Assembly: GCA_916048095.2 (NCBI GenBank)
Contig: OU696583.1
Coordinates: 6,549,822-6,613,821 of the forward strand
From: Sacculina carcini
Taxonomy: Eukaryota > Arthropoda > Thecostraca > Sacculinidae
Length of the DNA stretch: 64,000 bases
Direction of reading: 5' to 3'
Made by a program: the position numbers and the translations under genes. Shown here in pieces: positions 349 through 58,016 of this stretch. Positions within the stretch are counted from its first letter, which is position 1, and each line of letters opens with the position of its first letter. A model generated the notes under the pieces. The model worked only from the letters and a program-made list of their open reading frames with translations, did not search any database and had not been told where the DNA came from.

Positions 349-745
349 TGTAAATGGTGAAGCCGAACGAAACTATTCCAGGATGTATTAAAGCTGATAA
401 ACAATGAAGAAACGAAGAACACCAAGCAACAACGCAGAAATATCAAACACAATGCACACGCGCGCAACTCGCTCTCTAACACCACCACACACGACACACT
501 CTGTCAGCTCACTGACGCAATCCCCATTCGCACTATAAGACGACATTCGATACAGCCAACACCCGAACATACAAACAAGTGCAAGGATGGTCTCACGCTC
601 CGCCGCGCGCTGCAAACTCAGCGTCTCGTCAAAACTCAACGAACGCACGTGCGTATGCAGCGTGCGCTCCTCTCACATGCATCACTCAAGATTCACAGTC
701 ACACACATAACATACATAGCTAACGCCAACAACTCACAACTCACA
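349..745 (-). repeat. 3' LTR of element A
   Basis: A 397-bp LTR that reads TGTGAGTT...TTTACA on the element strand. It matches 4392-4788 base for base apart from six substitutions. Confidence 0.93.
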
Positions 746-968
746 TCCCCCTTGATCTTCATAATCACTCAATCGATGAATCACCATCGTCATCCGCGTA
801 CACCTCGTAGTCGCCAAATCTCGACGGCATGCGCACCTGTCTTCTCGGCCTCCAACCATTCTCTCCAGGTGACGCTTCCTGTCCTCTTGAAGACGCCACT
901 TCTCCATAGACCTCCATTGGGGGCTCCTCATCTTCGGCTTCCTCCTCCTGTGGTGGCCGGCGCTCGCT

Positions 969-3640
969 CTACCCCGTCTCACGTGGTCTCACATCACTGA
1001 CATGCCGGTTCATTCCATTCACCTCGACCACAAGGTCAGACACAACCCTGGAAACAATGCCTTCGTCGCTCACCGCGTCGCACCGCTCCCCCGGCCGCCG
1101 AACCCAAACGCGATCGCCCACTTTGAACTTGCTGGTGATAGTAGCTGTTTCACGCCGTGCAGGCTCCTCATCCGACATCCTCACGGCGTAGCGATACAAC
1201 AGATCCACAGGCCGCCGATTTGCTCCGTTCGACTTCGTCGGCGACAAGTTGTACAACATGACTGCCTCGAGAATAGAACACCGCTTTCGGGCCGCAATGG
1301 TTTTGACGGTCCTGTGACAACGCTCGACTATGCCACATCCTCCAGGTCGGTATGCACATCTGTAGCGTAGCGTTACGTGCCACTTCCTCATGGCCTCCAG
1401 GAAAACTTCACCTCGAAATGACGTATCATTGTCCAGAAGCAATTCGGTAGGTGGACCACGTTCACTGAACACCTCGTTGAAAACTTCAGTAACTTCTTGG
1501 CTGCTCCTGGAACGAAGCTTCTTCCACACGGTATAGCGTGAAGGTCCACAATCGATCAGGGAAAGATAGAGCGCAGAACCACAATGAGTAAAGTCAGCAG
1601 ACAGTCTACTCCACACTTTGCTGACACTCAGCTCACCCTTCTTCCACTTCGACGGCGCTGGACATACCGAATTGCAGGTGTCGCATGACCTCACGACCTC
1701 CGCCACCTGACGATTAGACACGAACAATTTCTTCCGCCTGCAGAAATATCTGGTTCGATGTACACCAGGATGCCCAGTCGAATGGTGGATTTCCTTGACT
1801 GCAGCGAGGACATCACCCACAACTCCAACTGCACAGGTCGATTGTCCCACCCTCAGCCAGGATCCAGGGACACGGGTGAGAACATCGGCTTTGTTTTTTG
1901 AAGACTCCACCTTGTGTACACAAACCGTCAGACCGTATTCGGAAATGATGTCTCTCACCATTTCCAGCCGCCACCTTATCAATAGTTCACCAGACGCAAC
2001 AGTCTTCATTCGCTCTCTCGCAGACAGCAGACCATTCATCCACGAAAACACAGTGGCTGAGTCAGTGAATAGGTCGATGTTCCTCAACTTCAGACTCACC
2101 GCCAATCCCAGACCTTTCACCACTGAATCTAACTCGCTGATGTTGATGTGCTGGGAATCGTTCCTGAGCCAGCATGCATCCTCCAAAGTCTCGCCATTGA
2201 TGTCCACCACAACACCCAAGGCGATGCTGCTGGCGTCCACCCACACATTTGCCGAGTCGCCTTCAATTTGACAGACACCTCGAACAGGGTCGCATTTTTC
2301 AACGCGTAACAGCAACGACATGACTATACCACGCAGACCGTCATCAGACACCGGATCGTCCCACCCTGTAGTGAATTTTGTCGCCAGTCGTTTGACAAAA
2401 GAGGCCGCCACCCGCAACCATCCAGCAACAGGGTAATGCGACACAAGTCTGCTGCATAAAGAAAACACAGTGCGTCGAGTCAGCACCTCAGGGCACTCTC
2501 CGATGTCGTTGTCCCTCTTCCACCGCAACACATTGCCATTCTTGTACACGAACAATCCCAACACACGCGCTCCCTGATTCAACTTCTCTATTTCTTTGCT
2601 TTCAAGTCCAAAACGTTCAAAATGACGCTTGACATACTCCGGTGACACGATGTCAGCATCCACAATCAAATCGTCAACATAAGATGAACATCCTTGATAC
2701 ACGCTTTCATCCTGACTGAGCACCTCATTCACCACAGTCTGCATGATCATGGGTACTGCACTGAGACCGAAACCCAGCCTTGTTAGGCAGTACAGCTGAC
2801 CTCCATACCTCACTGTCTGTTAAGGCCAGAGAGAGGGGTCCACTTGAATCTGAAGATATGCCTTTTTCAGATCGATGATGAATAGGTTTTCACTTTTCCT
2901 CCTCCAGACTCTCAATTTCTCATGGCACACGTCCGCGTCCGCCATGAAGTTGTCCACGTACTTGTTGAGCTCCCTGAAATCCAGGACGGGCCTGACCTTT
3001 CCTTTGTTTCGCTGCACGACGGCCATGAGTGGGAGCAGACAGCGCGGGTGACCATGCACGCTCTCATCATAAGGAACAAGCCACTTGTTCCTGACCCACA
3101 AATCCAGCTCACTCTCAAATGCCTCGAGAGCCCCCTCTGGCACACGATATTGCGGTGTTTTATTATGAAACGTTTGGGGCTCCTCTTCATTCACCCACCT
3201 CCACTTGCATTTCCACCTGCCCATGCTCCGGTCAAAATCAACTCTGTGACCCAGTTTACACACCTGAAGATCAGGTTCAGCTGCGCAGCACGACTGTGAC
3301 GGTAGCACTCCAAACGACACTTTGCTGTCAGCATCGACACTCACTCCTCCTAGAGCAGATATCACGTTCATGCCGAGAAAAGCGCTGAAGTTCATGGGCC
3401 TTTGTTCAGTCACCAACACTTCCACTGTGACCGAGCGACCTCCAATCGTCACACAACACTGCGCCACACCTGAACACACGAAACTCGCACCACCCAACAC
3501 ATTCACCATCATCCTCTCAGGTGTCCACGATTTACACACAGACCTGGCTACTATACACCTCGAACATCCCGTGTCCACTAAAACATCACACATGTGCCCG
3601 TCAATCGACACGTTCGCAGTGGGCAGCGCCTCGTTGTTCA
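969..3640 (-). pseudogene. pol: pol region of element A (PR-RT-RH-INT)
   Basis: Read on the minus strand, domains appear in this order: a retropepsin motif (VLVDTGC, about 3567-3585); RT with RPVLDFRELN (about 3000) and catalytic YVDD (about 2670-2681); a tail with the SHYPVAGWLRVA signature (about 2420); RNase H with WVDAS (about 2240) and TDSATVFSW (about 2070); an integrase HHCC zinc finger starting HHSTGHPGVHRTRYF (about 1780) with paired cysteines CDTCN; the DDE core with SADFTH, LLDNDTSF and GIVERCHRT; and a short GPY/F-like tail (VGDRVWVRRPG). The gag frame overlaps the start of this region, an arrangement many gypsy families bridge by programmed frameshifting. Lightly damaged. Confidence 0.88.
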
Positions 3641-4360
3641 TTGCGGAGAAAGTACCGGCGCCGATGAACCTTCTCCTTCGGAGTTTTCCGGACAGTATCT
3701 GGCGATGTGTCCCATCTTGGCACATCGAAAACACTTCGTGCCGGACATTCTCTTTGGACAGGATCTACTCCAGTGATCCGTCTCTTTGCACACGAAACAC
3801 CTCGTAGACGACACTGGAGCACGTCGAAGCACCGCCTGCTGTTCCGCCGATTTCGCCGCAAGACACGTCACATTATCCTTCGTCTGCAGAACCATCCGCG
3901 TTCTCACAACGATGTCATTGATGGTCAAGTTCTCCGAAGTAGCACTTGCCCGTATGCTCGCAGCAACATCCTCAGGGAGTCCACTGACAAATGCGCACTC
4001 GAGCAGCGAATCCGACCCATTCCCGAACGCCTGGGCCAGCCTCCTCAGGTCTGCGACGAACACATCCGGTGATCCGCCGGGGAGCAATCGCCGATTTTTG
4101 AACTGCTCGTAGGCTGCGTGCTTGTTCAAGCCGAAAGCATCGTAGAGAGCTCTGCGAGTTTTCTCGGCTGATTTTCTCTTTTCATCAGGCAGCTGTGACC
4201 ACACAACAAAGGCTCCCTTCGACAGTCTCAGAGGAACAACACTCATGATGTCGACACTTTTCAAACTGCACATCATCTCGGTCCTCGTCCACCACTCCAC
4301 CACATCACTACTTCCATCAAACTCCGGTATTAACCGGGCGTCGAACGAAGCCGACTCCAT
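3638..4360 (-). pseudogene. gag: gag region of element A
   Basis: About 240 codons. The N-terminal capsid-like part contains LIPEFDGSSDVVEWWTR and RALYDAFGLNKHAAYEQF, closely matched in element B. The C-terminal part carries two CCHC zinc knuckles (CFVCKETDHWSRSC and CFRCAKMGHIARYC), the nucleocapsid RNA-binding motif. It lies just inside the primer site, as expected for gag. Confidence 0.85.
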
Positions 4361-4379
4361 TTCTTCAATTTACAAATTT

Positions 4380-4391
4380 GGCCGGTTAGCT
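4380..4391 (-). other. putative primer-binding site of A, matching tRNA-Ile nucleotides 1-12
   Basis: The 12 bases touching the 5' LTR read GGCCGGTTAGCT on the plus strand, which is identical to the first 12 nucleotides of animal tRNA-Ile(AAU). On the element strand the sequence is therefore complementary to the tRNA 5' end. The usual TGG-initial complement of a tRNA 3' CCA end is absent. Element B has the same 12-mer at the same place. Confidence 0.7.
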
Positions 4392-4788
4392 TGTAAATGG
4401 TGAAGCCGAAGGAAACTATTCCAGGATGTATTAAAGCTGATAAACAATGAAGAAACGAAGAACACCAAGCAACAACGCAGAAATATCAAACACAATGCAC
4501 ACGCGCGCAACTCGCTCTTTAACACCACTACACACGACACACTCTGTCAGCTCACTGACGCAATCCCCATTCACACTATAAGACGACATTCGATACAGCC
4601 AACACCCGAACATACAAACAAGTGCAAGGATGGTCTCACGCTCCGCCGCGCGCTGCAAACTCAGCGTCTCGTCAAAACTCAACGAACGCACGTGCATATG
4701 CAGCGTGCGCTCCTCTCACATGCATCACTCAAGATTCACAGACACACACATAACATACATAGCTAACGCCAACAACTCACAACTCACA
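4392..4788 (-). repeat. 5' LTR of element A
   Basis: 397 bp, the partner of 349-745. It is followed outside by the TATTC target duplication at 4789-4793. Confidence 0.93.
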
Positions 4789-6062: not shown

Positions 6063-6386
6063 TGTGTGTGGTAATGATCATTGACTGGCTGTTGTTGCGT
6101 CAGCCGAGTGTCGCTGCGATCGCGCGAGTGACGTAAGAGGTGAGCTATGCTCTGATTGGCGGAGATTGCGTGGCGGGAGACTGGCTCGTCGGTTGCAGAG
6201 CGTGCGGTGAGCAGTATCGTTGTGAGAGGCGGACGGAGAGGTGCGGTCGAGTGGTGTTTGTGTGTATGTAATTGCGTGTACGGGCGAGGTGTATTGAGCG
6301 TGAGCCCTGCGGGCCATCGAGTGTTTTCGCGTTTGTTTGTGTCTTGCATTTAATACATTGTTCATTTGCGTTCGCGCCGTTATACA
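6063..6386 (+). repeat. 5' LTR of element B
   Basis: 324 bp, TGTGTGTGG...TTATACA, G+T-rich on this strand. It matches 10075-10398 except for one A/G difference near the start. Confidence 0.95.
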
Positions 6387-6398
6387 AGCTAACCGGCC
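6387..6398 (+). other. putative primer-binding site of B, complementary to tRNA-Ile nucleotides 1-12
   Basis: AGCTAACCGGCC directly follows the LTR terminal CA. Its reverse complement, GGCCGGTTAGCT, equals the first 12 nucleotides of animal tRNA-Ile(AAU). No TGG-initial site is present at the junction. Element A has the same site and C an equivalent one for tRNA-Phe. Confidence 0.7.
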
Positions 6399-6420
6399 AC
6401 GCGTCATTCGCATAGCCGGA

Positions 6421-7140
6421 ATGTTTTCGCCCCAAGAAGCAGTATCTGCGACCAATGCGGATATTGCGCAGATAGCAGTGTCGCCAGCAGGCAGTTTCGA
6501 TGCCCGGCTCGTGCCAGAGTTTGACGGCACCGGCGATGTCGTAGAGTGGTGGAATCGGGCGGTGATGCTGTGTGAGTTGAAGTGTGTACCAGTCATGAGC
6601 GTGATGCCCCTACGACTGACTAAGGGTGCATTCCACGTGTGGTCGCATTTATCGGCTGAAGATAGGCGAAGTGTTGAACGGACTCGAGCCGCGCTGTATG
6701 GTGCTTTTGGCATAGATAAATACTTGGCGTTCGAGCGCTTCAGAAATCGTCGATTGAACACAGGTGAATCGGTAGATGTATTTCTGTCCAGTTTGAAAGT
6801 GTTGGCAGACTCTTTCGGCGGGGTTAGTGATGAATTGCTTGAGTGTGCCTTTGTAACGGGATTACCGAGCGATATAGCGACAATGATTCAAACGGGTGCA
6901 GCCGCCGATAAGCTCACTCTAAACGACGTCGCGGTTAGAGCGCGGATGGCCCTGCAACGCAAAGAAGGAGCAATGAATCAGTCAAGGGATGAGAGCTGTT
7001 TTGCTGCACGAATGTCGACCACATCTAGGACTGGGAACAGATGTTATACGTGCAATGAAGTGGGTCATTTCAGCAGACAATGCCCATGAAGATCGTGCTT
7101 CAAATGCTCCAAGGTAGGCCACCTGTCTCGTGATTGTCCG
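6421..7140 (+). pseudogene. gag: gag region of element B
   Basis: The likely start is the ATG at 6421 (MFSPQEAVSAT). The capsid-like part has RLVPEFDGTGDVVEWW and ALYGAFGIDKYLAFERF, aligned with A. Two CCHC knuckles follow (CYTCNEVGHFSRQC and CFKCSKVGHLSRDC). The region upstream of 6421 in the same frame is LTR and primer-site sequence, so the 6421 start is preferred. Confidence 0.83.
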
Positions 7141-7199
7141 GGAAACGCCAGAGGAGAGAGTACATCGGCGCCTGTGCTCCCTCCGCGTATGTAAATAAG

Positions 7200-10061
7200 G
7201 TGCTTCCGTCAACACGCGTTTCAATAAACAATCGCGAATGTTCAGTGCTCATTGATACGGGATGTAGCTGCTGCATTGTTTCTGACGTAGTTTGCAAAAC
7301 GTGGAATAATGAGAAGACTTCAATTTAAACGCTGGGAGGAGGTGAATTCACATGTGTTGGAGTGGCAGTATGTTGTCTTAAATCAGGTAATCGCAAGGCT
7401 GCGGTGAAGATGCTGGTCGTACACGAGAAACCGCTTGGTTTTGATGCCGTGCTGGGGATGAGTGCCATCAATGCGATGGTTGGTGTTCGAGTAGTAGATG
7501 GTGAAGTGACGCTGGATGAGGATAATGTTGATGGACAGTGCTGTGCTGCAGCTCAGATGCTTCGAGAAGAAAAACTGGGACACTTCATAGAGTTCAATTC
7601 GCTAATCAAGAGATGGATGTGCAAATGGAGGTGGCATGACAACAAAGAACCAGATGCTTTTCGCAATCGTATTGCGCAGTACAAAGTGCCGAAAGAGTCG
7701 CGCGAATCCTTCAACAAAGAGGTTCAGCTGTGGATACGTAATGGGTGGCTGGTTCCGTATGATGAGGAAGAACACGGCCGGGCTCGTTGTCTGCTACCTC
7801 TCATGGCTGTCTGACAGAAGAACAAAGAGAAAGTGCGGCCAGTTCTCGACTTCCGCGAACTTAATCAATACATTGACTCATATACGGTGGAAGCAGACGT
7901 GTGTCAGGATAAGTTGAAGAGTTGGAGGAGAAAAGGTGACAATCTGTTCATCATGGACCTGACTAAAGCGTACTTGCAAGTTGCCGTCGACAAATCCTTG
8001 TGGCCTTTCCAAACTGTGATGTACGAGGGCGTGCTGTATTTTCTAACGCGCCTGGGATTTGGCCTCAACTCGGCGCCTATGATTATGCAGGCGATAGTTG
8101 GCAGGGTATTGTCCTTAGACAAAACAGTTGAACGAGGCACTTCAGCATACGTCGACGACGTGGTGGTTGACGGTGACGTGGTCTCACCCGACGTGGTTAA
8201 ACAACACTTGAGAAATTACGGATTGGAGAGAAAAGATGTGCAGCAATTTTCCGACGGTACTCGCGTACTGGGGCTCCACGTGTGGCGGTGTCGAGACGGC
8301 ATCCTTCGGTGGAAGAGAGACAATGCATTGAGCGAATTCTCCAGCGATCTGACTCGCCGAAACATTTTTTCGTGGTGTAGCAAGCTGGTCTCACATTATC
8401 CCGTGGCCGGCTGGCTACGAGTATCAGCGTCGTATATCAAGAGACTTGCAACTGAACTTTCTAAAGGGTGGGATGACGAGATTCGAGAGGAGAAGTTGAA
8501 TCGTTGCGTTCGCGAGGTGTCGGAGCGTATGGAACGGGACGATCCTGTGAAGGGCACATGGACCATCAAAGGTGAAGCGGCCAATGTTTGGGTGGACTCA
8601 AGTGATCTGGCCATTGGAGCAGTGGTAGAAGTGGATGGCGATGTCATCGAGGATGGCTGCTGGCTGAGAAAGGACGTCCACCACATAAATATCGGAGAGC
8701 TAGATTCAGTTGTCAAAGGCTTAGGGATGGCGGTGAAGCTAGCATTTCGTGAAGTCGACCTGTATTCGGACTCTGCTACTGTGTGTTCTTGGCTCACCGG
8801 AATGTTAACGAGACGAGAGCGAATGAGAACAGCCGCAACGTCTGAGCTGCTCATCTTGAGGCGACTGGAAATAGTTAAGAGCTTGATTGAAGAATACCAA
8901 CTTACATTACGCGTACATAAAGTGGAATCGCACAAGAACCGTGCGGACGCGCTGACTCGCGTACCATTATCGTGGCTTCGTCGAGAAATATGTTCAGCTG
9001 GTGTACAGAAAGGCGTTATCAAAGGGATACATCACGATGCTGGACACCCCGGCGTACACAAAACACGCTACTTCTGCAGGAGAAAAAATGTTTTTGCTAC
9101 GAAACGCCAGATCGCTGAAGTAGTCAGAGCATGTGATGTCTGTAATTCCATTTGTCCTCCGACCTTAAAATGGAAAAAAGGTTCGCTCAATGTGAAGGGT
9201 GTATGGGATCGGCTGGCGGCCGACTTCACACATGTTGGACGTGACTTGTACGTTTCAATAATAGACTGTGGACCTTCTCGTTTCGCTGTGTGGAGGAGAG
9301 TACATTCGCGGAATAGTGATGAAGTCGCCAATGTATTTGACAGTGTCTTCTGTGAACGTGGACCACCTGGGGAAATTTTACTGGATAATGACACCTCGTT
9401 CCGAGGGAGACCGTTTCTTGAGATCATGAGAAAGTGGGGAGTGAAAATTCGGCTTAGATGTGCGTACAGGCCTGAAGGCAACGGCATCGTTGAGAGATGC
9501 CATCGCACTATCAAAACGATTGCAGCAAGGAAGCAGTGTAGTATTCGGGAAGCTATCTCGCTGTACAACATGACACCCAGAGGAGACGGAGTGCAGCGCC
9601 GACCAGTGGACTTGCTGTATCGATACCGAATTAGAATGCTGGACGAGAATGGAGCAAAGGACGGGCCACGCAGAAACAAGAACTTCAACGTCGGCGACGC
9701 TGTTTGGGTCAGGCGGCCAGGGGACAGGTGCGATGTCCTCAGTCAAAAAGGCATAGTCACTGGGGTTATCTCTGATCTTGTAGTGGAAGTTGACGGACTC
9801 AATCGGCACGTCACGGACTTGCGGCCCCGTGTGGAGGAGGATGAGAGGCCTACTGGACATGTCACTGAAAGTATTGCAGATGAGGAGGAGCCACCGGTGC
9901 ATATCGACGTGAGAGCGATAACTTCGACGCCAGCTGAGAGCCAGGTTGTCTCACAGGGTGTGACTAGACCGAGGAGACAAATACAGCCTCCTGCAAGACT
10001 GCAAGACTATGAAGTTTACGCTGATGATGCTGCTGATACGTCTATTGGTAGTGATTCTTAG
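7200..10061 (+). pseudogene. pol: pol region of element B (PR-RT-RH-INT)
   Basis: In order: a retropepsin motif VLIDTGC (about 7248-7268); RT with RPVLDFRELN (about 7836), LTRLGFGLNSAPM and YVDD (about 8148-8159); SHYPVAGWLRVS (about 8390-8425); RNase H with WVDSS (about 8590) and SDSATVCSW (about 8767); an integrase HHCC finger beginning HHDAGHPGVHKTRYF (about 9030) with CDVCN; the core with AADFTH, LLDNDTSF and GIVERCHRT; and a GPY/F-like module VGDAVWVRRPG (about 9690). A hydrophilic, acidic tail ends at a stop at 10061, just before the purine tract. This is the best-preserved polyprotein of the lineage here. Confidence 0.92.
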
Positions 10062-10074
10062 AATCAGGGGGGAA

Positions 10075-10398
10075 TGTGTGTGGTGATGATCATTGACTGG
10101 CTGTTGTTGCGTCAGCCGAGTGTCGCTGCGATCGCGCGAGTGACGTAAGAGGTGAGCTATGCTCTGATTGGCGGAGATTGCGTGGCGGGAGACTGGCTCG
10201 TCGGTTGCAGAGCGTGCGGTGAGCAGTATCGTTGTGAGAGGCGGACGGAGAGGTGCGGTCGAGTGGTGTTTGTGTGTATGTAATTGCGTGTACGGGCGAG
10301 GTGTATTGAGCGTGAGCCCTGCGGGCCATCGAGTGTTTTCGCGTTTGTTTGTGTCTTGCATTTAATACATTGTTCATTTGCGTTCGCGCCGTTATACA
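10075..10398 (+). repeat. 3' LTR of element B
   Basis: 324 bp, partner of 6063-6386, followed by the ATTAG duplication at 10399-10403. Confidence 0.95.
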
Positions 10399-16850: not shown

Positions 16851-16889
16851 TAAGTACTAAACATCGTTATTTTGATCACAAAATTTGTT

Positions 16890-18420: not shown

Positions 18421-18499
18421 TGCTGCTAATGATCACAGTTCTAGGCAGGTTGCTGAGCAAGCGAATCCAGTTAGCGCTCAGTCAACGGACGGTCGTGAA

Positions 18500-20845: not shown

Positions 20846-20849
20846 TTGT

Positions 20850-22165
20850 GAGATCAAGAAGTCGTCTATGATTGCGTCTGTAAAAAATGTACCACTCGAA
20901 CATCCAGTTGATCCTACAAGATTTTCATCGTGGTCGAAGTTCGTTCGGAGTGTGGCGTGGATCCATCGCTTCGTTCGAAATCTCAAGGTGAAAGTGAAAA
21001 AAGAGGAATCTGCACAGTGTGGACCCTTGAGTGTACATGAAGTAAATTCAGCAGAACTGTTTGCTATTAGTCGGGATCAACAAATGCATTCGTCAAGTGT
21101 GACCTCAGATGATTCTATGATTGACCAGCGAGGATTGATTCGATACAAGGGACGTCTCAGTAGAGCACCGCTAGCTGAGTACACTCGACATCCCATCATT
21201 TTGTCGCGGAAAAGTGACTTGTAAGTACGCACTTGTAAAGCACTTGTAAGTTTCAAGTGACTTGAAAAGTAATTGGATTACCGATACATTATCACCATGT
21301 CCGAGTCATGCATTCTGGATTGAATCACACCATGAATAAGATCAGAGAGAGGTTCTGGTTTTCGCACATGAGGTCGACGGTTCGAGCTGTTATTCATCGT
21401 TGTATATACTGTCGGAATCGTCGAGCATCACCGACATTTCCACAGATGGCCGAATTGCCATGTGAACGGTTCGATTTGTCAAGACCGTTTTCGTCAGTCG
21501 GAATAGACTACTTCGTACCTATGGAAGTAAAAAATTTCCGAAAAGTTGAAAAACGATATATTCTTCTGATCACATGTTTATCCACGAGGGCTGTACATCT
21601 TGAAGTCACCTATTCTATGGACACGGATTGTTTTCTGTTAGCTCTGCGGAGGTTTATCGCACGTAGAGGCCAGGTCAAGGTTATTTTCTCAGATAACGGT
21701 ACAAATTTTGTGGGCGGAGAGCGCCAACTTCGTGATGCCATTCGTCTCTGGAACCAAGAGGTGATTGTAGATGAACTGTGTCAACGACAAATAGACCGGA
21801 AATTCAATCCGCCGCTGGCTAGTCACATGGGTGGAGTGTGGGAGCGGTTAGTTGGTTCAGTAAAAAGAGCAATCCGAGTAGTCCTGCGCGAGCAAAAACC
21901 TACTGATGACGTTTTGCAGACGATAATAGCAGAGGTGGAGTTTATGATGAATTCACGGCCGCTCACTTACGTTTCAAACGATGTTGGAGATCCAGAAGCG
22001 ATAACACCAAACCATTTTTTGATTGGAGCAGGACAAGGTGGACTGCCGCCAGGTGTTTTCAATGAGACGGACATAATCCGGACAACAAGAAGATGGAGGT
22101 TCAGTCAAGCTATGGCTGATCAAATATGGCGACGATGGAAGCGAGAGTATGTTCCATCGCTTATG
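20850..22165 (+). pseudogene. integrase region of BEL element D (first part)
   Basis: The zinc-finger part is HSGLNHTMNKIRERFWFSHM with CIYCRNRRA (about 21308-21430). The core has GIDYFVPM, YILLITCLSTRAVHLEV, IFSDNGTNFVGGERQL and PPLASHMGGVWERLVGSVKR (about 21500-21870). The BEL C-terminal segment has NSRPLTYVS, TPNHFLIGAG and RRWRFSQAMADQIWRRWKRE (about 21950-22150). It is then interrupted by element C; the remainder lies at 26846-27030. Confidence 0.87.
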
Positions 22166-22170
22166 GAAAG

Positions 22171-22562
22171 TGTAGGGAACAGGCCGAGCAAAGCAGTATT
22201 TAAGATGTATTTCAGATTAAAATACACGAATTTCACGAAAATACACATTGATTCACAAGGGCACCCTCACGCGCAAAACTCTAACACACAGAACTCTCTC
22301 GCACACAGAAGACCGCTTAATCCGCTCACTGCACCAGACACACTGCCGAAAAACAACACACCGCCACACGCCCCTGCAGGCACGGCCTCTTCCGTGCCGA
22401 GTCCCGGCTCGCCCCAGCGCCGCTCCTCCGACTCGGCGGCAGCATTTTGTTCAAACACACACATACACGCACATACACACAAAACGCACCCGCACGTCCA
22501 CATATTAATCAAACACCGCGCAGAACTGAGAGTCGGCAAATACTAAACACATACAGATGCAC

Positions 22563-22620
<58 letters not shown>

Positions 22621-22626
22621 CTTACA
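22171..22626 (-). repeat. 3' LTR of element C
   Basis: 456 bp. It includes a long (CA)n tract (about 22572-22620) near the outer edge of the internal region and ends CTTACA. It is longer than its partner mainly because of the CA tract. Confidence 0.9.
22572..22620. repeat. (CA)n microsatellite inside LTR of C
   Basis: An almost uninterrupted CA dinucleotide run within the LTR. The partner LTR has a shorter run at about 26808-26831. Confidence 0.95.
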
Positions 22627-22639
22627 CTTCCTCCTGATT

Positions 22640-25560
22640 GGCACAATCACACAAATGAGCAACTCTATTTCTACTAGACATTTTGCGGATTCTCTCGGAT
22701 CTTCGCAATGGCACTTCACTGCACACGCCATGATCTGCCTCTGTTTGTTCAGGCCTCACTGCCGCAACGTCCTGTCCATCTGTATTTACACTTTGTTGGG
22801 CAGGGAAAACAAGAGTGAGTTCATCGTCACTGGTGTCCACTGATGTCTCCGCAGCTACTTCCTCGCTTTGTTTATTGCCTCTCGGCCTCAAATGTCGCAC
22901 GTGTCTGTACATACCATCCACTTCCACACACTGTGCAGATACAACGTCAGTCACCACGCCTTCTGACCACCTTTCAGTGCACCTACTTCCTGGCTGTTTC
23001 AACCACACTCTGTCAACTTTTTTTAACTTTGGCGTCACTGGCTCACTATCCTCCGAACAAGTTTTGTCAATCCCTTTCGTTCTTAGATCATATCTGAAAA
23101 TCATTGACGCTGGCGTGCGATCAGGTGAAACATCGTCCAACGGGGTGACATTGTATAGATAGACAGCCTCCAATATGTCACACTGTTTTCTTGCAGCTAT
23201 CACCTTGATAGTGCGGTGGCTGCGTTCGACTATTCCATTGCCTGAAGGTGCATATGCACACCTGTACCTGACGTTGACCCCCCACTCATTTACAAAGCCA
23301 ACAGACATCTGGCTACGGAACGTCGTCTCGTTATCGGTCAGGATGCATTTGGGCGGACCGTGATCAATGAATACATTTCGCAGCGCGTCAACCACAACTT
23401 CCACGGTATGCGACCGTAGCGCACGTCATATTGCGAACCGAGATGGCCCACAATCAATCAGGGTTAAATATGACTTTCCTCTGAAGTGTGTGATATCCAT
23501 GGCCAGGCGCTCCCATACGCTCTCCACGCCCAAGTGTCCTCTCGTCCATCCAACAGGAGATGGGTCAATCGATCTACATATATCACACAAAGACACAACA
23601 TTTTTGACGTCTCTCTTGGTCACGCTGCTTCCGTTCCTCCTGACAAAGTACAATGTACGTCTGACGCCCGGATGGCCCATTTCATGGTGTATTTTCCGAA
23701 TCGTAGCTTCCACCGTATGCACCGCAGCGGCGCACGACACCTTGGCCTCTGTCGCAGCCCTATTGTGTCCCAGCCATTCTCTTGGGACTCTGGTCAGCTC
23801 GTCAGCTTTGTTTTCTCTGGACGGAACCAGTGTGACTGTTACTATCAAATGGTATTCGTAAATAAGTGATCTCACAATGTCCAATCTTCTGCGGACAAGC
23901 ATCTCAGCAGCCGCTTTTGTTCTCAACCTCGCCTTGTTGGTCAACATGTCTGAAACACATTGCCTGACAGTGACTGAGTCCGTCATCAACTCAATTTCGC
24001 GCATTTCCCATGCAAGAGCTAGATTCAAGCCTTTTATGACCGCGTCGAGCTCAGCCATATTTATGTGTTTCACGTCATCTTTCCTGAGCCAAGCACCATC
24101 TTCCACGATCTCTCCGTCAACTTCCATCGCAGCTCCCAGAGCCAGACAGCTGGCGTCTACCCACACCTTTGCTGTTTTGCCTCTCACAGCCCACCGTCCG
24201 CAAACCGGATCATGCTTGACTAGCTCGGCTTGAACTCGCTGCAAGCAACGCCTAACACCCTCATGACAATTTCGTCGTCCCATGATCTGCTGTTCTCATT
24301 GGCAATTGTCTTTATGTATGCCGTGGCCACTCTCAGCCATCCACCAACGGGATAGTGTCCTATCCACCTGCTACAGACAGAAAAAATTGTCCGCCGTGTA
24401 AGCCGCTCGGGTAAGCCACACACATTATCATCACGAGACCATCTCATCTGCCGGTTCTGCCTGAAAACTCTGAGTCCGAGAAACCTGCTCGCATCCTTCG
24501 ACGTCTCATTATCTTTGCACAATAGTCCGTACTTCTGCAAATGCTTGCGCACATATTCGGCACTCACCACATCCTCGTTCACTAGCACATCGTCGATATA
24601 CGGGACACTGCCTGACTCGACTAGATTGTCCTGGCGCATCACAGTCTTGAGCACCGCTTTCATGACCAGGGGTGCCACATTAAGCCCGAATCCCAGCCTC
24701 GTGAGACAGTACCTCTGTCCTCCGATCACAACTGTTTGGTAGGGCCACAGAGACTGGTGCACTTTTATTTGAAGGTACGCTTTCTTCAAATCAAGAACAG
24801 TCACATTATCCCCCTGCCTCCTCCACTGCCGCAAAACATGGGCACATACATCGGCATCTCTAGTGTGCGCATCAACGAAAGTATTTAGCTCCCTGAAATC
24901 CATAACAGGTCTTACTTTCTCACGTTGAGGCACGGCCATCAGCGGCAGTAATCCTTTCGCCGGACCCAGCTTGCTCTCGTCATACCTCACCAACCAGCCA
25001 TTATCTATCCAGCAATGCAGCTCGTTTTCAAAGGCCTCCTGATGTGTGTCGCCCACGTGATATGACTCCACAGAATTCTTCAAGGGGCCCGGCTCCTTAC
25101 CATTCGCCCACTTCCATCTGGCCGTCCAGGATTTTTCTTCCTTGTCATATTCAACAAGAAAATCGTTTTCTTCAGCTTTCAAACCCGCTTTGTTCGTAGT
25201 CACTGCAGAACACGCAAAATCTGCACCACTTTTCTTCCGAATTGACTTTGTCTCACAGTCGTCAACGCCAAACCGGACCTCACGGGCTGAAGAAACAGAT
25301 ACACCACCAAGAACGGTAATAGCGTCCATGCCAATGATCAGATCAAAACCCATTGGACGCGACGAGGCAACAATCACATTTATGGGCCGCGGAACTCCCC
25401 CACAGCACACGCGAATAGTTCCTCGTCCGATACAATCGAAATGATTCCGACTCAACGTGAGTACAGAGATTTTTTCTCTCGACCAGTCATCACACACGTC
25501 CCCGCACACAATGCTCGCCTAGCACCCAGTGTCTACAAGCGCGCGCCGACGGACACCGTT
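22640..25560 (-). pseudogene. pol: pol region of element C (PR-RT-RH-INT)
   Basis: From the right end on the minus strand: a protease-type ALVDTGC (about 25520); RT with VRPVMDFRELN (about 24900), LTRLGFGLNVAPLVM and catalytic YIDD (about 24600); IGHYPVGGWLRVATAY (about 24350); RNase H with WVDASCLALG (about 24150) and TDSVTVRQ (about 23980); an integrase finger HHEMGHPGVRRTLYF with CDIC (about 23590-23690); the core with AMDITHF, LTDNETTF and GIVERSHRT (about 23240-23500); then a GPY/F-like VDRVWLKQPG and an acidic tail. Broken at several points. Confidence 0.85.
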
Positions 25561-25589
25561 CACTTCAATGCGAATAACAGGCAGCTGCC

Positions 25590-26390
25590 CATTCACTGAC
25601 TGGGGGAAGAGGCCGGCGCAGTTTCTCCTCCCCCTTCGCCGTTTCCCGAGCGCTGTGCAGTGCGGCATTGAAAAGCCAGGTGACCGAGACGGTTGCAGTT
25701 GTAGCAGCGTCTCCCACGCCAACCAGACGGTCCAGGCCGGCTCGTTCGGGCTGCACCCTCAGTTGAAGACGGACAACGTGCAGCGAAGTGGCCAACCCCA
25801 CCGCACGTGAAGCACCTGCGCTCATCACTGCGATCGCTGGCCACCGACTCTTTCTCAGGCTTCGCCACAAAACAAGAGTCCGATGCATGTTTTTCGCTCT
25901 CATGTAACAGCACTCTTGAACGCTCGAGCAGCTCAGACGGGCTCATGTTGTCCAAGCGAGAGCCCATTCGAAGCAGCTGGCGTACGCCATCGGGCAGACC
26001 TGAAACGAACGCGCACATTACAAGTGAGTCTGGAACGTCACCGATGACAGAAGCCAGACGCTTGAGTTATGAGAAGTAAATGTCTACAGCTTCTCCGGAC
26101 TGTCTTTTCCTGCTGATGAAGTTATCATAAGCCGTGAATTTGTCTACTGAAAAGGCAGTCAGTAGCGCATGCTTGATTCGCTTGTAGTCTTGTTTCGCAT
26201 CCTCAGGAAGCTGTTGGTAGACGGCGAAAGCGCCTCCAGTCAGCCTTAGCGGCACAACACTGTGCAGGTCGGTAATTCGCCTGAGCCGACACACCAACTC
26301 TACTTTTTCCAGCCACTCACTGACTGAGGATGAAGACCCATCGAACTCTGGGATGAGTCTCAAGTCAGCACTTGTCTCACTCATTTCCAT
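25590..26390 (-). pseudogene. gag: gag region of element C
   Basis: Begins MEMSETSADLRLIPEFDGSS, similar to the A and B gag starts, then FAVYQQLPEDAKQDYKRIKH and LLTAFSVDKFTAYDNF. Two CCHC knuckles follow (CFTCGGVGHFAARC and CYNCNRLGHLAFQC, about 25675-25810). The order and spacing match A and B. Confidence 0.82.
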
Positions 26391-26394
26391 ATAC

Positions 26395-26406
26395 GCCGAA
26401 ATAGCT
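26395..26406 (-). other. putative primer-binding site of C, matching tRNA-Phe nucleotides 1-12
   Basis: The 12 bases touching the 5' LTR read GCCGAAATAGCT on the plus strand, identical to the first 12 nucleotides of animal tRNA-Phe. On the element strand it is complementary to the tRNA 5' end, ending at the same tRNA position (U12) as the tRNA-Ile sites in A and B. Confidence 0.7.
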
Positions 26407-26840
26407 TGTCGGGAACAGGCCGAGCAAAGCAGTAGTTAAGATGTATTTCAGATTAAAATACACGAATGTCACGAAAATACAGATTGATTCACAAGGGCAC
26501 TCTCACGCGCAAAACTCTAACACACAGAACTCTCTCGCACACAGAACACCACTTAATCCGCTCACTGCACCAGACACACTGCCGAAAAACAACACACCGC
26601 CACACGCCCCCGCAAGCACGGCCTCTTCCGTGCCGAGTCCCGGCTCGCCCCAGCGCCGCTCCTCCGACTCGGCGGCAGCATATTGTTCAAACACACACAT
26701 ACACGCACATACACACAAAACGCACCCGCACGTCCACATATTAATCAAACACCGCGCAGAACTGAAAGTCGGCAAATACTAAACACATACAGATGCACAC
26801 ACGCGCACACACACACACACACACACACACATAACTTACA
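26407..26840 (-). repeat. 5' LTR of element C
   Basis: 434 bp, partner of 22171-22626, followed by the GAAAG duplication. Confidence 0.9.
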
Positions 26841-26845
26841 GAAAG

Positions 26846-27043
26846 AAAGAAGTGGAGAAAGGACAGCGACAATCTCAAGCGGGGCGACGTAATGATGCTG
26901 GTGGATGAAGACAGCCCTAGGAACCATTGGCCGTTGGGTATAGTGAAGGCAGTGTTCCCCGGGTCTGATGGAGTGGCGCGTTCAGCTACAGTTCGCACGT
27001 CGAGGATGTGGGGTTGGATTTGCTGCGCAAATCAGAGGGGGAG
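26846..27043 (+). pseudogene. integrase C-terminal part of BEL element D (second part)
   Basis: Resumes after element C with basic residues, then LKRGDVMMLVDEDSPRNHWP, LGIVKAVFPGSDGVARSATV and RTS. This is the DUF5641-type tail typical of BEL/Pao integrases. It is followed by the purine tract and 3' LTR. Confidence 0.85.
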
Positions 27044-27417
27044 TGTGGAGACGATGTTGGCGCCTCCGCGCTGAAAGGAGAAGACGCAACTATATAGGGC
27101 GTGTGGAGACTGTTGGTTTCTTTGTGTTTATATTTGTTGGCTTACATGTTATTGCTTTTGCATTGATGGATTGAATATTTTGGCTATTTTGTGGGATAGC
27201 AACAATATAGATGGTGGTTGAGGCTGTTTTGGCTGGTAATGTGTTTGGTTGGGAAGTGTTTGTGAAGTATTGAAAAGGAAGGAAGCGTTACTGTTTAGTA
27301 CCGTGTCAAAGTGAAACCTTTGATCAGAAAAATATATTGTGTGAAATATTATGTGATCTGAACACCGTGGAGATTTGCTTGGGCGCGCGTAACAACAGTT
27401 CGTTTTGGGATCGAACA
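27044..27417 (+). repeat. 3' LTR of BEL element D
   Basis: 374 bp, partner of 16478-16850, followed by GTTGT and the resumed copia E2 gag. Confidence 0.9.
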
Positions 27418-28168
27418 GTTGTGGTGAAAAGGGGCATATACTGCGAAACTGCACTCAGAAACCGCGCAGATGGTGTGAAGTGTGTAACAGTCACACTCAT
27501 GATTCCAAATTCTGCAGGAGGAAGTTTCATGTGAAAACTGTGAGCAACGAGAACGACGATTTTGTATTCAAGGTCATTAGTAATGTTATGAACGTAGAGT
27601 TTGATGATTTGAATGTTGAAAGAGGTGGTTTTGGTCATGTGGAAGTGGTAAATAGTTTGCTTGTTGATTGCGGAGCTACAGCGCATATTGTGAGAGATCG
27701 TGATAATTTTGTGTCTTTTGATGAAACGTTTGATGGTTCTCGTCATTGTATTGAGTTGGCGGATGGTATTTGAGTTAAGGGTGTTGTCGAACAAAAGGGA
27801 ACAGCTTGTGTTTCACTGTATGATTCAGGCGGTGAATCTAGACTTGTTTTGCTAGAAAATGCTCTACTTGTGCCATCATTTTCTCAGAACATTATTTCTG
27901 TACAGGCTGCTGCAGAAAAGGGAAGTGAAGTGTCTTTTATTGGTAATCACGGATCACACCTGATGGAACAAAGTTTCATATTAAGAAAAAGTGTAATCTT
28001 TATTATCTGTATAGTGTTGTACATGATAATGATGCCCGGCGATTATTAAAATCGTGGCATAGTGCTTTTGGTCATTGTAATGTGAATGATATATTTAAAT
28101 TGGAAAAGGTAGTGAATGGAATGACAATCACTAACAGAAATTGTTTCGATTGTAATGTTTGTATTGAG

Positions 28169-28807
28169 CATGGACTCCTTTAAGGAAGGACTGGAACGTC
28201 ACGACTTCGGGGTTTTTAACTTGAGTCTGAAAGATAAACTTGATTCCTTAATAAAAATGACTTCTAGAAGAGCTAGAAACACGTTCTTTGGGTCAAAATG
28301 GGGGTTTTTGAGGACGCTGAGTTCAATAGTAACATTTTCAACACCACTTGAAGTCATCTCCTAGGTCAAAAGGTCATATTTCAAGGTCTAATTTGTGAAT
28401 TTTGATCATTTTTGCTCGTTTTTTGTGTGTAACTCATAAATGGTGAGAGATGGATGATTATAATAAGAGGCAAGTCTGTAGAGTTGTTCAAATTTAATAT
28501 ATATTGTCGAATATTGTATTACTCAAACATTCCAAACAAGCCCTAAAACAATGAAACACTAAAACAAGAAATAAAGAACGGTACCTATTTCTCATAACAA
28601 CAAAACTCAAAGACATTAACATTTGATTAGATGAACATCGCTAGATGGAGAGGTTTTCTTGCCTCCTGAGGCATCCCACAGCCTTTTCTTTGTCACTTAC
28701 ATTGAGGACGTGAGCTTTCAATAGAATGTTAGCCAAAGTCGTACATGCTGCATTATTAGTAGCTAGAGGTGCATCTACAATCTACATCTAAGTGACAAAG
28801 AAAAGGC
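28169..28807. mobile_element. half of the foldback element
   Basis: Starts CATGGACTCCTTTAA after GTATTGAG and matches 12571 onward through the left arm and the central unique part. Similarity stops at AAAAGGC (about 28807), just after the second arm begins. Only one arm plus centre remains. Confidence 0.88.
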
Positions 28808-42135: not shown

Positions 42136-42199
42136 CTCGATCGGGTCGACCCGAGCATCGTCTCGTCTCGTCTCATCGTTTCGATCGGGTGATCATAAT

Positions 42200-52947: not shown

Positions 52948-53173
52948 TGTTATGTCTTCACTATCGATGAAATCAAACACACAATGTTAACTGATGTTCT
53001 CTATTCAACTCCTTACTGTACACTGCCACTTGAAGCCCATTGCTTGTTACAATTCACAAACACAGCTCCTGACACACAAGCATACAAAACATACACCCGC
53101 TGAAACACACGCATGACTAGTTGTTGTGGACACCGTACGTACACGCACACACGCACAACTCACACGCACGACA

Positions 53174-53248
<75 letters not shown>

Positions 53249-53285
53249 CACAAAAGTGCACACGCACTCTTGTAAATACACAACA
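52948..53285 (-). repeat. 3' LTR of element J
   Basis: 338 bp, TGTTATGTC...CACAACA on the plus strand, with a (CA)n tract at about 53177-53246. Confidence 0.93.
53177..53246. repeat. (CA)n microsatellite inside LTR of J
   Basis: About 35 CA repeats. The partner LTR has a slightly longer tract at about 57901-57977. Confidence 0.95.
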
Positions 53286-53319
53286 CTCCTCCACACTCAA
53301 ATACGCGATGCATACCTTC

Positions 53320-56300
53320 AGAAACGGTCCGGTGTATAACGCACAGGAGCACGGACCGTGCGACCAAAACTTGAACGGTAGTCACCTGGATTCTGTCTGG
53401 TCACAGACCGCTTCGGAGAGGAACGATCCGGTGTGTCATGATCAGGAGGAAGAATTTCACGACGGGGACTCGAATGGGTAGCACTCGCGTCTCGATTGAC
53501 GACAGAAGGATCGCAATTTGAAGTCACCGTGTCTCTCGGATCAGCTAACGGCAGATCTTGATTCGGCCCACACGAGGAGCTGGACATTTCTGAACGATCG
53601 ATCATGTAACGCCCACTGACATCTATTTGAATGTGTTTCCGCTGCTCCTGCTCGTTACACGTCCTCCGCCGAAGCTGATCAATATGTCGTCTGATGACCA
53701 CTCCGTCCGTCCGCACCTTATACATGACTGCGCCCATGCGCTGCACAACCGTTCCGAAAACCCAACGTCCAGAACCCTGGTACCAACGAGCATGTACCCT
53801 GTCACCTGGTTCAAAGTAACGAAGTGACCGCCTGTAATTGGCTAACACCGGCTTGTTGATGTCGAGTTTCCAATCCAGCAGATGACGGTGAATTCTACCG
53901 TGTAACACTTCTGCTGGTGATTTTCCGTCTAGTGACGGATGAGGCGTTGTTCGGTATTGCGCCAGTATCTTCACCAAGTTGTTACGGCTGCTGGAGTCGT
54001 CATTTGATAACTTCCTCAGTCCGTGCTTCAAGGTTTGTACAAAACGCTCAGCTTCGCCGTTCGACGATGGATGATATGGTGCTGTAGTTGTATGTGAAAT
54101 TCCTTGCACCTCGCAGAAATGTTTGAACTCCGATGAAGTAAATTGTGGCCCGTTGTCTGACACAATGGAAACGGGCAGTCCTTCAATGGCGAAAATATGT
54201 GTAAGTGCAGATAGAGTTGCCGAGGCCGTAGTTTGGCCGACGTTCATCATGGATACATATGGGAACTTCGAAAATGAATCCACGCAAATAAAAAACATGT
54301 AGTTGCCAATTGGGCCCGCGTAGTCAACATGAAGTCTTTTCCAGGGTTTGCTAGTCAACGGCCAGGGTTGCAACGACGCTAGCGGCTTTCTTGCGTTCCG
54401 AGCGCACGTGGAACAATCGTTTACGTACGCCTCTATTTCTGCGTCGATAGAGGGCCACCACACGAATCTTCGTGCCAATTGCTTCATCCGAGTCATTCCA
54501 CAATGTGCAGCATGCAATTCTTCAAGAACCCGTTTTCGACCCGCATTCGGAATAATGAGGCGCACGTTTCCTTGCCGTTCTAGAATCATGCAACCTTTGT
54601 ACAAAGATAAAGATCTACGTAATTGCCAAAAAGGCTGTACACTCACAGTTAATTTCGAAGATTTTTCTCGCCATGCGTCTTCATAGATCCGCTGTTTAAC
54701 CTACGACATTGTTTTGTCGGCAGAAGTTACTCTGGATATGTTGCTGAGATTCACAGGATTCTTACTCTGATTCAGCTCCTCTTCAATCACCTGCTGAATT
54801 TCGTGCGCCTCCTCGGACTCTAGTCGATCGAACACAGGATCAGTACTGATCGGAAGACGTGAGAGACCATCTGCATTTCCATGCAAAACTGTTTGTCTGT
54901 AACGAATGACAAATCGGTAGGCCATCAGCTTCAGTGCATACCGTTGTAATCTCTGTGCCGTACACGAGGAGATATTCTGTGCTGGTGAGAAGATGGATAC
55001 GAGAGGTTTATGGTCTGTTATCAGCTCGAATTCGCGACCATACACATACTGATGAAACTTGGTGACACCAAACATTATTGCAAGAGCTTCTTTCTCAACC
55101 TGCGAGTAATTTTTCTGAGACGCATCCAAAGTTTTAGAAGCGTATGCAATTGGCATCTCAACTCCATCAACACGTTGAGATAGAACTGCTCCTATACCGT
55201 ATGCTGATGCGTCAGTTGCTAGTACAAGTGGATTTTGAGGGTCATAATGTGTGAGGTGAGTTGCATTGATCAGTTTTGTTTTAGTGTGTCAAAGGCATGT
55301 TGACATCTTGGAGTCCACACAAACTCTGCAACTGAAGCATGAAGAAGAGCATTCAGAGGAGCAGATATATCAGCAATATTGGCGATAAACTTGTGGTAGT
55401 AATTTATTTTGCCCAGAAAAGCCCTCACTTGCGACACATTAGTAGGTCGCGGCAATTTCTTGATAGCTTCGATGTTTGTCTCTGAAGGCACCTTTCCATG
55501 TTCGCTGATCACGTAGCCAAGGTACTCCACGGAAGGCTTGAAAAACTCACATTTGTCGCGTCGGCATCGTAATCCATATTACGATTATCATTGCCAGTCT
55601 TGAAAGAAAGATATTCAAGTTTTCCAAATGCTCGTCGTCGTTCTTCCCGGTCACAATGACGTCATCAAGGTAAGCTGCGCATCCGGGCACTCCAGATGTT
55701 ATCGTGTCCATTAGCTTTTGAAACACAGCTGGCGCAGATGCAATGCCAAACGGTAGCCGATTGTACGAATACAACCCGTACGGCGTGTTGATGACAGCTA
55801 CTTTCTTTGCTTCGTCTTCTAACTCACATTGGAGGTAGGCATCTGCCAAATCCAGTTTGGAGAACAGCTTGCCCCCTCGCAGTTTATGGAAGAGCTCGTC
55901 GATGCACGGTATTGGATGTTTGTCGACGTCCATAGCGGCGTTCAAAGCCTTGAAATCTCCACAAATCCGAACGCGGCCATTCGGCTTCATAACTGGAGCA
56001 ATTGCTGCCGACCAGTTACTAAATGGAATTAGTTGGAGAATGCCAATTTCAACACAGCGATCCAATTCTTGTTTAACTGCATCCGTGAGTGCAAATGGGA
56101 TTGGTCTTGCTTTAGCAAATACTGGCGTTGCATCCGGTTTAATGCGAATCTTCACTTTGCCCTTGGTGCAGAGACCAAGCTCTGGTCGGAAAACATCTGA
56201 ATGTCGATTGATAATCTTGTTCAAATTGTCATCAGGCACACTAACGGTCTTCTGCACTACATGCGTGATAAAATCTGAGATGTTAAAATTCAACACTTTG

Positions 56301-56600
56301 AATGCCTGGCACCAATCCATTCCAAACAGGTTTCCACCCATCTCTGAGTCCGTTACTATAAGCGGTAGATGTTTCTTTTGTTGTCCTAGTTGCACAGAAA
56401 CTGTACATGTTCCCTTCACTGCAACTCTTTGATTCCCGTAGGCAGTCAGTCGACTTCCTGTGGCTACCAATTCAGGAGAGCCAATCATTTGATACCCCCG
56501 TAATCCGACCAAGGAGCATGTCGCTCCTGTATCCAACTGAAACCGCACAGAATGATCATTGACGAATATGTCAAGCATAACACGCGATCTATCAGACGTA
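53320..56600 (-). pseudogene. pol: pol region of element J (PR-RT-RH-INT)
   Basis: Minus strand: retropepsin FQLDTGATCSLVG (about 56530); RT with RICGDFKALNAAMDVDKHPI, KLFSKLDLADAYLQCELEDE, LPFGIASAPAVFQKLMD and catalytic YLDD (about 55660-55980); the RT/RNase H link MEYLGYVISEHGKVPSE and RAFLGKINYYHKFI (about 55420-55530); RNase H with PIAYASKTLDASQKNYSQVE and TDHKPLVSIF (about 54990-55156); and integrase with HAAHCGMTRMKQLARRFVWW, CSTCARNA, LHVDYAGPI, SDNGPQFTSSEF and HPSSNGEAERFVQTLK (about 54030-54520). A hydrophilic tail follows. This is the classical gypsy (Mag-like) signature set. Confidence 0.9.
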
Positions 56601-57655
56601 TATACTGACTGAACTCCATGGAGACTTTCTGAAATACTGTTAACATTTCCAGGAGCTTCTGCGCCTTGTTCATCGATGTCGTCAGCCTCATGGATAAAAT
56701 CTCTTCTTCGAGCCCCACCTTGATGTCCGGAACCACGTGGAGGTCTGGTACCTCGGTACCCAACTGCAGGAATGTCGCGCTGACCTGGCGCCTGTCGACC
56801 CCCAGCTGATGTACATACTGACGCCAGATGACCTACACGCTGACACACATAGCACGTTCTGCGATTATGAGGACATGAGCATCTATCATGATCCACAAAA
56901 CAACGAGGACATGACTTAAGTTTCACTGTCTCTGCGGCCGGTCTGTGAGTACTTTTCTGGCTGTAGTAATCGCACATTCTGTTCACCTCAATATCTTTCT
57001 GTGTTTTCTTCTCACGTGTCAGGCGGCCCGCTGTTTCTATCGTGCGCATGTAGTTAGTAGCTATATTCAGCACTGTCGGAAGATCAGGGTGTATCTGAGC
57101 GATACAGGCTCGACGCACTTCGTCGTGTGGTGTTTTGGCCACGATTTGGTCCCGTATTTGCTCATCCACGTAGCTCTTGCCACATTTGTCCACTTGACAT
57201 TTAAAATTGCAATCCTTTGCGATACCTCGCAGCTCGGCGACCCAGTCTGCGTACGTCTGCGATTCCTTCATCTCACATTGCTGAAAGTCATACCTGGCAG
57301 CCAGGACATGAACGGTTGTCTTGAAGTGCTCGGTCAGTGCTGAGGTGAGAGTGTCGAGTGGCTGTTCAGATAGGCTGCTGCCGGCGAAGATATTTGTGAG
57401 CAGCTCGTATGTGCTTGTGCCCACACAGGACAGAAATAATGCTCTGCGTTGTAACTCGTCCATAACATTGTAGGCCACCAAATGCTGTTTGAACCTCTCC
57501 AAGTAGGTCTGCCAGCGCTCCTTATCGCTGCAGAACTCAGTGAACGATGGAGCCGTGACTGTACACGCCGCTGGCGCAGCAGTTCTTACTAAAGTCATCA
57601 GAGCTTTGTTCTGTGCTTGCATCTCCGCAAGCATCGCTGCTAAATGTTCCTCCAT
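56600..57655 (-). pseudogene. gag: gag region of element J
   Basis: Starts MEEHLAAMLAEMQAQNKALM. FCSDKERWQTYLERFKQHLV and RRALFLSCVGTSTYELLTNI are typical of Mag-like gags, followed by a CDYYSQK region and a CCHC knuckle CYVCQRVGHLASVC (about 56815-56856). It lies directly inside the primer site and leads into protease in the same frame. Confidence 0.86.
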
Positions 57656-57657
57656 CT

Positions 57658-57673
57658 CCCACTTCTGACACCA
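57658..57673 (-). other. primer-binding site of J (tRNA-Leu 3' end)
   Basis: On the element strand the bases after the LTR read G then TGGTGTCAGAAGTGGGA, complementary to the 3' end of tRNA-Leu(CAA) (TCCCACTTCTGACA plus CCA). This is conventional 3'-end priming, unlike A, B and C. Confidence 0.82.
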
Positions 57674-57674
57674 C

Positions 57675-57900
57675 TGTTATGTCTTCACTATCGATGAAAT
57701 CAAACACACAATGTTAACTGATGTTCTCTATTCAACTCCTTACTGTACACTGCCACTTGAAGCCCATTGCTTGTTACAATTCACAAACACAGCTCCTGAC
57801 ACACAAGCATACAAAACATACACCCGCTCAAACACACGCATGACTAGTTGTTGTAGACACCGTACGTACACGCACACACGCACAACTCACACGCACGACA

Positions 57901-57979
<79 letters not shown>

Positions 57980-58016
57980 CACAAAAGTGCACACGCACTC
58001 TTGTAAATACACAACA
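57675..58016 (-). repeat. 5' LTR of element J
   Basis: 342 bp, partner of 52948-53285, followed by GATAA and satellite sequence. Confidence 0.93.

Follow-up and report, generated by a model that had tools for sequence, protein, structure and literature searches.

LTR retrotransposons normally prime from the 3' end of a tRNA. Element C, an LTR retrotransposon in a 64,000-nt stretch of the Sacculina carcini contig OU696583.1 (hereafter the window), carries directly beside its 5' LTR twelve bases that correspond to the opposite end, the first 12 nucleotides of tRNA-Phe. This observation from the original prediction is confirmed and is much larger than first noted. We consider it probable that the elements form one deep DUF7047-bearing Ty3/Gypsy-like clade, with the tRNA-Phe site in most families seen and a tRNA-Ile(AAU) site in others, and that a 12-nt 5' tRNA fragment primes minus-strand DNA at the clade's 12-nt site at the U5 border. 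A cut of the tRNA by the element's RNase H is a less certain part of this explanation.

Element C and Its Site

The plus strand at positions 26395–26406 reads GCCGAAATAGCT and the gap to the 5' LTR of C is 0. As predicted, the 12-mer equals nt 1–12 of tRNA-Phe, here judged by the 5' end of human tRNA-Phe(GAA) as printed for a forward primer (PMC10505166). The features of C are:

22171..26840, minus strand: element C, DUF7047-type Ty3/Gypsy-like LTR retrotransposon (from LTR pair, TG..CA ends, GAAAG duplication and ORF domains)
26407..26840, minus strand: 5' LTR of C, sense TGTAAG...CCGACA
26395..26406, minus strand: putative primer-binding site of C, sense AGCTATTTCGGC, complement of tRNA-Phe nt 1–12
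22627..22640, minus strand: polypurine tract of C, sense CAATCAGGAGGAAG, at the 3' LTR (from sequence)
22171..22626, minus strand: 3' LTR of C

Three features set the LTR border: the two matching LTRs (97.2% identity over 425 bp aligned), their TGT...ACA ends and the flanking 5-bp duplication GAAAG (22166–22170 and 26841–26845). On the sense strand the 5' LTR ends in ..CCGACA and is followed by AGCTATTTCGGC and then GTATATGGAAATGAG, with an ATG four bases beyond the 12-mer. The ORFs of C match RVT_1, DUF7047, RNase H and H2C2, with an rve match below the cut-off.

Element C was inserted within the pol frame of a BEL element (16478–27417; LTRs 16478–16850 and 27044–27417; duplication GTTGT). 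The bases past the 5' LTR of this BEL element, TAAGTACTAAACATCG, have no initial TGG. The surrounding region, 15657–28807, consists of nested insertions, in which a copia-type element seems to have been split by the BEL element and the BEL element by C.

Other Elements in the Window

Elements A and B have the same layout as C, with GGCCGGTTAGCT, the complement of the sense site, beside the 5' LTR. They are listed together with a Gypsy-like element that serves as a contrast:

349..4788, minus strand: element A, LTRs 349–745 and 4392–4788, duplication TATTC
4380..4391, minus strand: putative primer-binding site of A, sense AGCTAACCGGCC, complement of tRNA-Ile nt 1–12
6063..10398, plus strand: element B, LTRs 6063–6386 and 10075–10398, duplication ATTAG
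6387..6398, plus strand: putative primer-binding site of B, AGCTAACCGGCC, complement of tRNA-Ile nt 1–12
52948..58016, minus strand: contrast Gypsy-like element with a TGG-type site, sense GTGGTGTCAGAAGTGG, beside its 5' LTR

The GTGGTGTCAGAAGTGG site of the contrast element is presumably of the tRNA-Leu 3'-end kind. The pol of B matches RVT_1 (2–118) and RVT_3 (286–339), both just under the Pfam cut-off, followed by H2C2 (398–444) and rve (468–553), and that of A matches RVT_3 (200–271, over the cut-off), H2C2 (341–383) and rve (405–492). The domain matches of A and B thus give the order RT, RNase H, integrase that is typical of Ty3/Gypsy-like elements. The LTR pair with TG..CA ends, the short target duplication and the polypurine tract of LTR retrotransposons are also present, the duplication being inexact in one element found elsewhere (L020).

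It had been claimed that A and B show independently the same geometry with tRNA-Ile. The geometry holds, but the two are sister elements in the RT tree (support 100/100) and are not independent of each other, so a single acquisition of the Ile site suffices for both.

The window also contains a long inverted repeat at 12571–13720 (90% over 1.17 kb), part of which also matches 28169–28699, and tandem repeats of ≈3.8 kb at 42181–52478, which hold shorter internal repeats and have diverged copies at 57.9–61.6 kb.

Genome-Wide Occurrence of the 12-mers

The window belongs to a 264-Mb assembly of 43 contigs, and the whole assembly was searched for the 12-mers with the reversed pattern as control. 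There are 2021 sites (1016 + 1005) for GCCGAAATAGCT vs. 5 (3 + 2) for its control, and 1913 sites (958 + 955) at which the 12-mer is followed by the TG of the LTR edge vs. 0. For GGCCGGTTAGCT the numbers are 402 (197 + 205) and 22 (12 + 10). By our own arithmetic, which takes the number of tRNA 5' ends to be about 45, a fixed 12-mer equals some tRNA 5' end with a chance of ≈3e-6 per element.

Both LTRs were mapped in 12 elements (A, B, C and nine others). The 12-mer lies at offset 0 in all 12, and LTR borders that displace it from the junction, named in the original prediction as a way for it to fail, were not seen. AGCT... follows directly past the LTR in all 12, and the target duplication is exact in every element except L020. 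On a single contig 28 loci were selected for the presence of the Phe 12-mer; CA comes just before the site in 27 of them, the remaining one (L001) reading ..ACT. The same ending is found in L046, which was chosen as it was listed among the 12-mer sites but not among the sites of the 12-mer with TG. All 22 of the non-tRNA Ile places examined have CA just before the site.

Two of the loci, L006 (1109–2576) and L016 (2566–4092), are short LTR elements carrying the same Phe site, and with ≈1.1 kb between LTR starts they are presumably non-autonomous. In L002 (1501–1521) the Phe site is directly followed by CAAATAGCT, an inverted repeat of the first 8 bases of the site that could fold over it.

Copies Selected by an RT Motif

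Copies were also picked independently of the site by the RT motif WP[YF]QTV, searched as DNA, and this sample answers the bias of picking by the 12-mer. The motif has 217 + 232 sites in the assembly vs. 0 + 1 for the control. The sample consists of the 56 sites on contigs C1 and C2 among the 100 matches listed of 449, and it covers copies with an intact motif only. According to the place lists, 29 of the 56 have an exact 12-mer 1.5–2.1 kb upstream in the right orientation (12 Phe and 17 Ile). The remaining 27 include two tandem copies that were left out and 25 that were read as 800-bp pieces.

These pieces yielded 14 exact Phe sites, four sites with one mismatch (two Phe and two Ile) and one, L090, with three mismatches after ..ACA, while six had no visible junction and could hide another site. 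One of the six (L086) resembles the LTR of site-bearing elements and seemingly stops short of the site, another (L081) has a Phe site after CA in the orientation opposite to its RT motif, and L070, L072, L076 and L084 bear no resemblance to any junction read. Tabulating the junction bases of relatives, as had been proposed, thus gives one of the two 12-mers, Phe or Ile, exactly or with a single mismatch, in 47 of 48 readable junctions (43 exact and 4 with one mismatch; L090 is the exception), or in 47 of 54 if the unjudged pieces are counted as misses. No other kind of site occurs among the 48 readable junctions of these RT-picked copies. At C2:3646397–3649878 three copies of the RT motif lie 1.73 kb apart, possibly a tandem duplication within an element.

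Sharpness, Spread and Possible Change of the Site

We grouped 69 exact junctions into 23 clusters, joined by 12-mers common to their 60-base flanks on both sides; positions 1–12 are identical in this set by selection. The LTR ends in CA before the site in 67 of the 69, the final base being A in these and T in two Phe junctions (L001 and L046). At positions 13–30 no base exceeds 47% among the 17 Phe representatives or 67% among the 6 Ile representatives. Upstream of the site the ACA end of the LTR is common, and C is found at −5 in 76% of the Phe representatives. Conservation ends at both borders of the 12 bases.

The RT sequences of different families share 35–61% identity, with a median of 42% over 105 pairs from 15 elements or loci, a set that includes two near-copy pairs (88% and 96%). 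In the RT tree A and B lie on one side of a branch and the 13 Phe rows on the other, and A and B would thus nest among the Phe elements, unless the root falls on the A and B branch. One cluster of 18 junctions contains 13 Phe and 5 Ile sites, and therefore more than one site change is possible. In L060 (C2:964801–965101) the two sites are in tandem, with the Ile site next to the LTR, the Phe site beyond it and TGTAACA between them; at C1:6827229–6827259 the spacing is the same according to the place lists. The tandem in L060 is perhaps a fossil of a primer change. The Phe form, the Ile form and the tandem within one genome would then constitute a natural record of such change.

Identity of the tRNAs

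The tRNA-Ile(AAU) of the host itself begins with the Ile 12-mer, GGCCGGTTAGCT. Continued by CAG as in tRNA genes it becomes GGCCGGTTAGCTCAG, which has 10 sites in the assembly; two of these places were read and were identified as tRNA-Ile(AAT) by ARAGORN and as tRNA by Rfam. The Ile and Phe variants end in five common bases, TAGCT. Pairing would end at nt 12, since the 13th base of tRNA-Ile, C, would face the last base of the LTR, which is A in 67 of 69 junctions. At the other border it would stop at the mature 5' end, since C precedes the tRNA in the two tRNA-Ile genes and the base after the site varies.

A tRNA-Phe gene was not found in the 264-Mb assembly by any of the patterns used. Neither GCCGAAATAGCT with the CAG continuation nor the D-arm pattern has a match in it. 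The anticodon-arm pattern has 4 matches, all tRNA-Cys, and BLAST with a 73-nt tRNA-Phe gives 4 places, which are the same tRNA-Cys genes. The pattern of T arm plus acceptor is found 3 times vs. 3 for its control, with no tRNA there, and that from anticodon to T loop 6 times vs. 5, with no tRNA at the four places read. An Rfam tRNA search of the genome returned 51 matches, but only 63 of 15013 candidates were scored and the two tRNA-Ile genes read above are absent from it. To our knowledge every animal must have tRNA-Phe. We therefore take the missing gene as a gap in the assembly rather than a real absence, and the Phe match consequently rests on the tRNA of other animals.

Proposed Priming Mechanism and Alternatives

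The original interpretation, in which the site would pair with the tRNA 5' end, is supported, and we likewise infer a fragment ending at nt 12 as the primer. The 5' end of the tRNA would pair with the site, which is the exact complement of nt 12 to 1 of the mature tRNA, and the 12-nt 5' fragment, ending within the D arm in a 3'-OH at nt 12, would prime minus-strand strong-stop DNA. The predicted primer RNA is GCCGAAAUAGCU for the Phe type and GGCCGGUUAGCU for the Ile type. With its position at the U5 border, the site sits where the 3' end of a primer is required, and it is equally long for both tRNAs. Plus-strand synthesis would copy the primer up to its 5' end and so restore a site of exactly 12 nt, which would explain the sharp limits of the site.

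For the step that releases the primer we favour, with less certainty, a cut of the paired tRNA after nt 12 by the element's own RNase H. The reason is the precedent of Tf1, whose RNase H, to go by the title of a 1996 paper by Levin, reportedly cuts an RNA duplex to make the primer. Priming would then be of the Tf1 type, but with a tRNA as the source of the primer strand. The main rival to this step keeps the geometry and lets a host nuclease make the 12-nt fragment, which the element merely uses. We see it as a serious possibility, though the less probable one: 5' tRNA fragments occur in animals and nt 12 would be the point of the cut in both tRNAs, but a nuclease that leaves a 5' piece of 12 nt is not known to us. 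The tRFs described in PMC7515703 measure 16–35 nt, and that a 12-nt primer is shorter counts against the main explanation.

The remaining alternatives dispense with the tRNA 5' end as primer. Self-priming of the Tf1 type, with the element's own RNA 5' end paired to the site, would fit a site that, like those of self-priming elements, lacks TGG and adjoins the LTR, and the Tf1 site, at 11 nt, is close to 12 in length. However, the longest run of the primer 12-mer in the LTR is 4–7 nt in all 12 elements, 15–100% of shuffled 12-mers match the LTRs equally well, the LTR sequences vary between clusters while the 12-mer is constant, and the 12-mer is present once only in each of 28 loci (20 of 9.8 kb and 8 of 3 kb). 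With no partner in any of the 12 elements and runs within the shuffle range we reject self-priming from the LTR as very improbable, and the better match to the element's own R region that the original prediction had considered as counter-evidence is not there. Just as improbable is ordinary tRNA 3'-end priming at an overlooked site, the 12-mer being some other signal, and nothing was found in its favour. The first 12 bases past the LTR contain no TGG in any of the 12 bounded elements, whose borders are backed by duplications in 11 cases, and the window itself holds a Gypsy element with a TGG-type site; the conventional class, with a site starting in TGG, was accordingly rejected for all 12. 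Slightly less remote, but still improbable, is a non-tRNA RNA that supplies GCCGAAAUAGCU and primes the Phe-type elements. The failure to find a tRNA-Phe gene in the assembly would agree with such a primer, but the host tRNA-Ile begins with the Ile variant, which shares TAGCT with the Phe variant, and human tRNA-Phe starts with the same 12 bases (PMC10505166).

Novelty and Comparison With Known Systems

The modes of priming named in the parts of the literature available to us are those from a tRNA 3' end, from a half or internal tRNA and by self-priming or a hairpin, besides unexplained sites (Tj1 and Tf1 being the self-priming LTR retrotransposons of PMC4600332; PMC6317226, PMC5006619, PMC5445492, PMC5371799, PMC3601003). 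We found no report in the open-access literature of a primer-binding site that matches a tRNA at its 5' end. The tRNA 5' end as primer would be a further priming mode for LTR elements. At least one survey (PMC6317226) based its search for sites on matches to tRNA 3' ends and to the element's LTR, and finders of this kind would class the present elements as site-less. Fragments from tRNA 3' ends are reported to act on retroelements (PMC7515703), and 5' fragments could, if the proposed priming is true, do the same.

DUF7047 (PF23088) relatives occur in Trichuris, Trichinella, Chionoecetes, Portunus, Amphibalanus, Pycnogonum and Hydra, with RT sequences 40–59% identical to C among the matches listed (120 of 566). 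One listed RT relative is labelled as a bacterial MAG and was taken for contamination. At the DNA level no relatives in other organisms were found in GTDB genome contigs or IMG/VR, and among solved structures the RT weakly matched two chains of HIV-2 RT and a single protease/RT/RNase H chain. More tentatively, and a little short of an even prospect, 5' tRNA capture with an RNase H cut may be a further priming class that characterises the DUF7047 clade throughout nematodes, crustaceans and Hydra, in which one tRNA has at times been exchanged for another, and it may bridge tRNA priming and the self-priming of Tf1.

The elements resemble those with conventional 3'-CCA priming in having a tRNA-complementary site beside the 5' LTR of a Gypsy-like element, but the site matches the opposite tRNA end and has no TGG. 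In copia-type priming, which belongs to Ty1/copia elements, it is the anticodon region of the tRNA, near nt 39, that pairs with the site. The would-be primer here is likewise a tRNA piece with an internal 3' end, but it would pair through nt 1–12 and the pol order is RT-RH-IN, so that the elements fall outside half-tRNA priming. Half-tRNA priming is described in PMC5371799 and, for 1/2tRNA-Met and 1/2tRNA-Ile, in PMC6317226, and priming from an internal tRNA-Lys is described for FunCo1 in PMC5445492. In PMC3286476 Mag-lineage Gypsies have conventional tRNA-Leu or tRNA-Ser sites, and an element from Culex carries two complete tRNA copies as an insertion at its site; the Culex case differs from the 5'-end site described here. 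Tf1/Sushi elements differ in that their primer sequence comes from the LTR, from which it is absent here, being that of a tRNA 5' end; in addition, neither the integrase ORF of C nor the pol of B has a chromodomain match (E 1e-3). As in Tf1/Sushi, the site lies directly past the 5' LTR, lacks TGG and is about 11–12 nt long, a paired short RNA 5' end is the would-be primer, and RNase H is a candidate for the cut.
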